A DNA stretch of 52,289 nt from assembly GCA_031254805.1 (NCBI GenBank), contig JAIRTP010000003.1, positions 1 to 52,289 of the forward strand. Direction: 5' to 3'. The notes below the pieces were generated by a model, which saw only the letters and a list, made by a program, of their open reading frames with translations, did no database searches and had not been told where the DNA came from. Positions 10,934 through 13,680 of the stretch are shown here, in pieces. The number at the start of each line of letters is the position of its first letter. Position 1 is the first letter of the stretch. A program made the translations under genes and the position numbers. The DNA comes from Bacteroidales bacterium (GTDB lineage Bacteria; Bacteroidota; Bacteroidia; Bacteroidales; WRLA01).

Positions 10934-11024
10934 TAAAACAATTGTTAACTATCTATCGTAACTTGAATATTTTTCACGCTACAATTTTTTTTCAAATTTT
11001 TATAAATGAAAAAGAATAATTTGT

Positions 11025-11032
11025 TACCTTTG
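11025..11032 (+). promoter_or_regulatory. promoter -7 element of rplU-rpmA
   Basis: TACCTTTG followed by CACCC, the form also seen before rpsJ and fusA here. It gives an untranslated leader of roughly 75-80 bases before rplU. It is divergent from the lipid-operon promoter. Confidence 0.75.
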
Positions 11033-11043
11033 CACCCAAATTT

Positions 11044-11557: not shown

Positions 11558-11815
11558 ATGGCACATAAGAAGGGCGTCGGAAGTTCGAATAACGGACGCG
11601 AATCGCATAGCAAGCGATTAGGTGTGAAGATTTTTGGCGGACAACAGGTAAAAGCCGGAAATATTATTGTTAGACAAAGAGGTACGGTTCATAATCCCGG
11701 CGTGAACGTTGGAATGGGAAAAGATCATACGCTTTTTGCATTGGCCGACGGCGTAGTCGCTTTTAAAAGAAAAGCCGACAACAGATCGTATGTTTATATC
11801 GTTCCTCAGGAATAA
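11558..11815 (+). CDS. rpmA: 50S ribosomal protein bL27
   Basis: An 85-residue bL27, which reaches toward the peptidyl transferase centre. It begins directly with [20 protein letters not shown], so there is no cleavable N-terminal extension like that of Firmicutes bL27. It is the second gene of the rplU transcript. Confidence 0.97.
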
Positions 11816-12402
11816 ACAAAAGAATGGATTAAATATCAGACTGTTATTATAGTCTTGAAATATTGAGTCCACTCTGGAAACCCGCTCAGTTCTATTTTAA
11901 CCTTATTCACACGCTTTGTGAGCGAGGTTCATTTTGAGAAAAGCGCTTCTCGGAGTGGACTTAATATTTAAACTGTTGAACGTTAATGCGGCCGCATTCA
12001 TAAAAAATTAAACGAATTATATTTAATGCTTTATGAAATCCTTGCAATAAAATATTTCATTCATTAATAGATAAAGAGTAATGATTCATAGTAGATTTGA
12101 TGAATTTTATGACTTGATATTAAAATGAGAATTAATGTTCTTTCATTTTGCATCTAAATTTTAAAGCTATTTCCAAAACAGAATCTACATTTTTAATAAT
12201 GCGTAAAAATTTCATAGATTAATAATCAGGCGTCGTTTGTTCATTCCCACTAAAATTTTACTTATAAATGCGCTTCTTCCTGTAAGAACTGTCGTTTTTT
12301 TTTGTAAAAAGCATGAATTAAATAAGATGAAATATTACATAGATCAGGCAATGAAATTAATTTTAGTAGAGATTTCATGTCGCATTTTTTTACATTCTTA
12401 AT
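11816..12402. other. 587-base gap between rpmA and rimO
   Basis: No open reading frame of note. It holds the long inverted repeat described separately (11858-11969), a 14-base perfect palindrome AATGCGGCCGCATT (11985-11998), and an AT-rich hairpin AAAATGA/TCATTTT (12122-12128 with 12143-12149). I see no TAnnTTTG element just before rimO. The rest is AT-rich sequence in which I see nothing. Confidence 0.6.
11838..11969 (+). ncRNA. candidate structured RNA with long closing stem
   Basis: Bases 11858-11874 and 11953-11969 form a 17-pair stem (16 Watson-Crick and one G-U), which three more pairs including wobbles could extend inward (11875-11877 with 11950-11952). Inside are the helices AACCT/AGGTT (11899-11903 with 11925-11929) and TCACA/TGTGA (11907-11911 with 11917-11921), plus an alternative GAGAA/TTCTC hairpin (11936-11940 with 11947-11951). 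A small hairpin AGACT/AGTCT (11838-11842 with 11851-11855) precedes it. There is no promoter element directly before it, so it may be cut from the rplU-rpmA transcript. The strand is assumed from that; 6S-like or a Bacteroidales-specific RNA are options, as is a DNA repeat. Confidence 0.45.
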
Positions 12403-13680
12403 ATGAAAGTCAATATCATCACATTAGGCTGTTCAAAAAACATCGTTGATTCGGAGGTTTTGATGAAACAATTACAAGCTTCCGGTCTCGAAGTCGTTCA
12501 TGACAGTAACGAACCTGCTAAAATAGTCGTCATCAACACCTGTTCTTTTATCGCCGACGCTAAACAAGAATCTATTGATACCATATTGGACGCTGTAGAG
12601 TTGAAAAAAGCGGGAAAGATCAGTAATATTATCGTATTCGGATGTTTACCGGAACGTTACGCCAAGGAGTTAAAAGCAGAAATTCCTGAAGTCGACTATT
12701 GGTTTGGCGTACAGGATCTTTCAAAGATAACGCAAGCGGCGAAGGGGACGTATAATCCGGAAATCTTAAATGAACGGGTTTTATCGACGCCGACGCACTA
12801 CGCTTATCTGAAAATTGCTGAAGGATGCGACAGAAAATGTTCCTTTTGCGCTATTCCGTTAATCAGAGGAAAACATATTTCAAAACCGATTGAAATTTTG
12901 GAAGATGAAACGAAACGGTTAATCGATAAAGGCGCCAAAGAGATATTAATGATATCGCAAGATTTGACCTATTATGGCGTAGACAGGTACGGTAAACAAG
13001 AGTTGACAAAATTGGTCGACGCTATTTCCCAAATCAATGGAGTTGAATGGCTTCGACTTCATTACACATTTCCCACCGGATTTCCAACTTCGTTATTAGA
13101 TTTGATGCGTGAAAGAGAGAACATCTGCAATTATATCGACATTCCTCTGCAACATATCAATGATCGTATATTGAAAAGCATGCAACGGGGAATTGGAAGA
13201 GAAGGAACAATAAAATTATTTGAGCAGTTTAGAGAAAAATTGCCAAACGCCGCTATCCGGACGGCATTTATCGTCGGTTATCCGGATGAAACGGAAAAAG
13301 AATTTTTAGAATTGGTAGACTTTGTTCGTTATGCTCAATTTGACAGAATGGGCGTTTTTACCTACTCTTCCGAAGAGGGGACAAAATCGTACAACATGAA
13401 CGATAATATTCCGGAAGAAGAGAAGCAAAAACGGGCTGAATATTTAATGGATATTCAACAAGAGATTTCGTTAAATAAAAACAAAGCAAAAATAGGGAGC
13501 ATTCAAAAAACGCTGATTGATGAATTTGAAACTTCTTATTGGATCGGACGTACCGAACATGATTCTCCGGAAGTGGATAATACCGTTTTGATAAAGAGTA
13601 AAAAACCATTGAAAATTGGAGAGTTATACGACGTTAAAATTGTCGGGGCAGATTTATATGATTTAGAAGGCGAAATTTAG
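12403..13680 (+). CDS. rimO: ribosomal protein uS12 methylthiotransferase RimO
   Basis: A 425-residue radical SAM methylthiotransferase that adds a methylthio group to the conserved aspartate of ribosomal protein uS12. The N-terminal UPF0004 domain shows Cys10, Cys47 and Cys81 for the auxiliary cluster, the central CX3CX2C motif is CDRKCSFC (Cys142, 146, 149), and the C-terminus is the RNA/protein-binding TRAM domain. The opening VNIITLGCSKNIVDSE is typical of RimO rather than MiaB. It stands alone after the rpmA gap. Confidence 0.95.
   Translation: MKVNIITLGCSKNIVDSEVLMKQLQASGLEVVHDSNEPAKIVVINTCSFIADAKQESIDTILDAVELKKAGKISNIIVFGCLPERYAKELKAEIPEVDYWFGVQDLSKITQAAKGTYNPEILNERVLSTPTHYAYLKIAEGCDRKCSFCAIPLIRGKHISKPIEILEDETKRLIDKGAKEILMISQDLTYYGVDRYGKQELTKLVDAISQINGVEWLRLHYTFPTGFPTSLLDLMRERENICNYIDIPLQHINDRILKSMQRGIGREGTIKLFEQFREKLPNAAIRTAFIVGYPDETEKEFLELVDFVRYAQFDRMGVFTYSSEEGTKSYNMNDNIPEEEKQKRAEYLMDIQQEISLNKNKAKIGSIQKTLIDEFETSYWIGRTEHDSPEVDNTVLIKSKKPLKIGELYDVKIVGADLYDLEGEI

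Follow-up and report, generated by a model that had tools for sequence, protein, structure and literature searches.

The long stem that follows rpmA in the window, by which we mean the whole 52,289-nucleotide stretch of Bacteroidales DNA analysed here, is, on sequence comparison, very probably an immobile relic of a MITE family whose ends are common to an IS1182-like insertion sequence of related Bacteroidales. The two arms of the stem correspond to the terminal inverted repeats of a dispersed mobile element with the consensus GAGTCCACTCCGAAAA. As related copies are scattered across other uncultured Bacteroidales, we interpret the stem as mobile DNA and not as a conserved small RNA, and its identity as a 6S RNA is unlikely.

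The stem downstream of rpmA

The stem lies in the gap (11816-12402) between the plus-strand gene at 11558-11815, which from its sequence we take to be rpmA, encoding ribosomal protein L27, and the next gene on the same strand, which starts at 12403 and is presumably RimO-like. A repeat search identified an inverted repeat at 11855-11874 and 11953-11972 whose arms are 90% complementary and separated by 78 nt. In the minimum-energy fold, the helix includes 17 pairs, AAATATTGAGTCCACTC with GAGTGGACTTAATATTT, one of them G-U, and the 78 nt within the arms form a further stem and hairpin, so that the arrangement is as the initial annotation had described it, with two 17-base arms and one G-U around about 78 self-folding bases. 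The further claim that the structure exceeds chance expectation also held, as the plus strand had a folding energy of -67.0 kcal/mol versus -39.9 ± 4.0 kcal/mol for 200 dinucleotide shuffles (z = -6.8), none of which was as stable as the native fold. Unusual stability was also seen for the minus strand (z = -4.1), as expected of a DNA palindrome. The interval originally given, 11838-11969, contains a real stem but starts too early, since 11838-11855 forms in the fold a small separate plus-strand hairpin that belongs to the left flank and is outside of the element.

Sequence inspection together with a test of the family places the whole element, a 98-bp MITE without a transposase gene, at 11865-11962, 49 bp beyond the stop codon of rpmA. 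It begins with the left terminal inverted repeat GAGTCCACTCTGGAAA (11865-11880, plus strand) and ends with the right terminal inverted repeat AAGTCCACTCCGAGAA (11947-11962, minus strand), each of which agrees with the family consensus in 14 of 16 positions. Between them lies a variable, hairpin-forming centre of 66 bp (11881-11946; z = -2.6 when folded alone). Direct reading of the sequence shows the hexamer AATATT on both sides, at 11859-11864 and at 11963-11968, as the two copies of a 6-bp target duplication. This hexamer agrees with the target preference of the family, which is A-W-T-N-W-T-like, but it is palindromic and alone cannot separate a direct from an inverted repeat, making it weaker as sole evidence. 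At 98 bp the window copy is short for the family (median 149.5 bp over 64 paired copies), and its centre found no match among the other copies. No ORF of at least 60 aa lies inside of the element, and the sole ORF of that size to touch it is an antisense ORF over rpmA that starts within the left arm. The remainder of the gap before the RimO-like gene, 11969-12402, is A+T-rich, contains no ORF of at least 60 aa, and may hold further decayed insertions.

A dispersed family and its IS1182-like parent

The arm TTGAGTCCACTCYGRRAA, allowing at most one mismatch, was found in 26 of 96 Bacteroidales genomes including the window's own, with 42 copies in genome G062, 40 in G077, and 29 in G091, while the reversed arm pattern, used as a control, gave a single match across all 96 genomes. 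At this threshold the window's genome had no matches other than the two arms of the element itself, and thus carries one copy; at three mismatches there were eight extra scattered arm matches versus three for the control. Multiple copies per host are usual for MITEs, although they are not strictly required of each host. A palindromic repeat had been one of the options offered for the stem, and this proved right in kind, given the scattered copies in other Bacteroidales, but not for the window's own genome, where the element is single. The exact 17-base arm was absent from 395 genomes across the phylum, only five of which, besides the window's own, belong to the same order; as this exact pattern misses the window copy too, the conclusion from this search is limited to the rarity of the exact arm outside of the order. 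When the stretch was compared with 99 genomes by BLAST, four gave a match: the window's own, G077, G062, and G056. The G077 and G062 matches are arms within other paired or single repeats, the G062 match (in L004) being a lone arm, while the G056 match sits inside a long ORF and was taken as chance. Similarity between window 11830-11858 and a G077 copy (L002:408-438) runs approximately 30 bp past the inverted repeat (83% over 53 bp), which is either chance in A+T-rich DNA or shared target sequence.

For analysis of complete elements, copies were required to have one arm with at most two mismatches and a partner with at most five, 60-450 bp apart, with 40 bp of flank on both sides. This yielded 64 paired copies from 16 genomes, with identical copies counted once, and a further 40 loci without an acceptable partner were dropped. 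When GAG...CTC was taken as the limits of the element, its edges showed a perfect direct repeat of 6 bp in 37 of the 64 copies (permutation mean 1.6, maximum 7) and a repeat with at most one difference in 45 (permuted mean 9.9, maximum 22); the remaining 27 lack an exact duplication. The register of the ends was fitted after a first test with 3 bp (38/64) and was kept the same in the permutation, and the counts in neighbouring registers of the 3-bp test indicate that the repeat is 6 bp long. Exact duplications were found in 33 of the 58 copies with a non-palindromic left hexamer and, once the window copy was excluded, in 36 of 63, with at least one in 10 of the 16 genomes.

A candidate parent was found in G084, where two family ends approximately 1.3 kb apart enclose an ORF with a DUF772 transposase domain. 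A search of 28 genomes with the product of this ORF gave matches in three, G084 (two places), G091, and G024, and all four matches are flanked on both sides by family ends with at most five mismatches. An autonomous element with the same ends is thus present in these three genomes. Two of the transposase frames, one in L207 (560 aa) and one in L206 (554 aa), cover the IS1182 model (NCBIfam NF033551) nearly end to end, as members of that family do; unlike the family proper, they score only 81 and 114 bits versus a cut-off of 270, and because these scores are so far below the cut-off we term the parent IS1182-like only. An exact 6-bp duplication is missing from all four transposase-bearing copies, which weakens the case for recent movement of those copies. 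The search detected no transposase match in G062 or G077, which have the most copies of the element. It also detected none in the genome of the window, which is 97% complete, and this second result suggests that the window copy is now immobile.

We propose that the element entered the gap after rpmA when it was mobilised in trans by the parent's IS1182-like transposase, with a 6-bp staggered cut. The parent would since have been lost, or would never have become established in this genome, leaving the element immobile and slowly decaying, and the strong stem would be a by-product of its inverted-repeat ends. Transcription of rplU-rpmA may run on into the stem, which would then belong to the 3' untranslated region, and the element might influence expression of rpmA.

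RNA or DNA: compensation, rpmA loci, and alternative functions

Across the 64 dispersed copies, 11 arm changes were matched by a change in the partner arm, versus 10.6 expected by permutation, while 166 were one-sided, of which 67 leave a G-U pair. Compensatory changes of the kind expected of a conserved RNA stem were therefore not apparent in these dispersed, non-orthologous copies, and because the changes are uncompensated, each arm resembles a recognition site decaying on its own. The centres behave differently: with the ends removed, 44 of 64 folded with z < -2 and 36 with z < -3 (mean z -3.5), the G062 centres being mostly exceptions without unusual folding. As the ends were removed before folding, they do not explain this result. 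The centres differ in sequence, and many have GCCAC...GTGGC arms and A/C-rich repeats (e.g. L002:253-407, L181, L184, and L185). There is some chance, although a small one, that the family keeps its variable centres because they form hairpins. The element would in that case act as a mobile cassette, placing a functional hairpin close to genes such as rpmA, whether as a terminator, as the 3' end of a messenger, or as a fold of single-stranded DNA that serves transposition.

Relatives of rpmA were found in 93 of 97 genomes, and the comparison of their downstream regions covered 30 loci kept from the search of relatives and 80 loci from genome contigs. This revealed no counterpart of the stem at the other loci folded, in what is a coarse test given that the 300-nt stretches often reached the next gene; the longest helix spanning at least 80 nt had 19 pairs at the window locus, and no other locus exceeded 14. 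In G002, a genome of the same genus, the stem is absent after rpmA, where a different gene follows. No empty insertion site could be demonstrated.

These data bear on two readings in which the stem has a role. The possibility that a transposon-derived hairpin has since been put to use, either ending or stabilising the rplU-rpmA messenger or separating it from the next gene, strikes us as rather improbable. The proximity to a ribosomal protein operon, whose stop codon is 49 bp away, and the good state of the element, with both arms at 14 of 16 positions of the consensus and a nearly perfect stem, would suit such a role, but an insertion of no great age would explain the intact stem too. Moreover, no T-run follows the stem, and the only terminator-like site found there is a small inner hairpin, in a region with two such sites versus 0.8 expected. 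The second reading, a small RNA that is specific to the lineage and arises by processing of the rplU-rpmA transcript, had been among the suggestions for this stem and draws on the better folding of the plus strand relative to the minus strand (z -6.8 vs -4.1) and on G-U pairs that favour the plus strand. We consider it very unlikely, as the structure does not look conserved, being absent after rpmA in G002 and without a comparable helix at the other rpmA loci folded, and as the arm changes of the family are uncompensated, albeit in copies that are dispersed rather than orthologous.

The proposal of a 6S-like RNA was examined with the covariance models that had been recommended for 6S and the Bacteroidales RNA families, and none gave a relevant match at the stem. 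Rfam at the gathering threshold over the window placed no family there, and a search of 231 bases at E ≤ 10 returned only four chance-level matches, to snoRNA, miRNA, and CRISPR models. The 6S model RF00013 gave one weak match (in G005) among 41 genomes and none in the window's genome, although this model fails on most of the Bacteroidales searched. We assume that Bacteroidales-1 (RF01693) and 6S are the same RNA. RF01693 had no match at the stem and, at E ≤ 0.001 in the window's genome alone, none at all; in a run over 96 genomes at E ≤ 1, its sole and weak match in the window's genome was at C127:8258-8450 (E 0.006, 28.7 bits versus a cut-off of 60), equivalent to L138:1501-1693. This locus lies between two genes that we take to be zapA and rny, likewise in G002 and other relatives. 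Among 30 loci examined, 12 have rny nearby and nine of these also have zapA (tblastn, own locus included). Around the 15 strong RF01693 loci, the fetched sequence contains neither gene. Blocks of sequence are common to the 12 rny-linked loci, and 10 of their 12 consensus pairs have changed on both sides. The rny-linked loci are L138, L133-L136, L139-L143, L145, and L146, and in most of these genomes the RNA scores below the RF01693 cut-off. It is possible that the 6S RNA of these Bacteroidales, so far unannotated, is this zapA-rny RNA. A 6S RNA, together with product RNAs, has been reported from Bacteroides thetaiotaomicron (PMC7366714).

In common with 6S and Bacteroidales-1 RNA, the plus strand of the element has a long closing stem and an interrupted middle, here with a terminal hairpin, which is the shape expected of a regulatory RNA that sequesters RNA polymerase by mimicking an open promoter. 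That the element is such an RNA is nonetheless extremely improbable: it matches no 6S model, its arms are a mobile repeat, the Bacteroidetes-type promoter motif TANNTTTG was not found just upstream of it, and the Bacteroidales-1-like RNA at zapA-rny, with its two-sided changes in this and other genomes, is the better candidate. Upstream of rplU, the window has TTTG followed by TACCTTTGC at 11021-11033, which we take to be a promoter motif of the Bacteroidetes type.

Relation to known elements

MITEs are a known kind of element, also in Bacteroidetes (PMC4596501, PMC9769881). MITECca01 of Cardinium is a bacterial MITE derived from an IS982-family parent (PMC9769881), and like it the present element is short and non-coding, with inverted-repeat ends common to a transposase-bearing parent; unlike it, the present family has different ends, an IS1182-like parent, a presence across many genomes, and very variable centres. 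BrickBuilt of Porphyromonas gingivalis likewise is a MITE that lies between genes and comes from a Bacteroidales species, and it contains a 23-nt tandem repeat (PMC4596501). The present element has no such tandem repeat and has a hairpin centre, a distinction drawn from the published description. Titles and abstracts of the open-licence PMC literature yielded no description of the present family, and the arm strings occurred only in 13 papers that, by their titles and abstracts, concern eukaryotes. We therefore provisionally regard the MITE family as apparently undescribed.

Reading the stem as a transposon relic keeps it out of catalogues of Bacteroidales small RNAs. It also sets out what defines a seemingly undescribed MITE family, namely the ends, the duplication of 6 bp at the target, and the IS1182-like parent. 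The long stems of other copies of the family could mislead RNA searches elsewhere in the order. An exact family arm also lies at L177:4058-4075, on an IMG/VR viral contig with phage-like genes, where a single arm was found.
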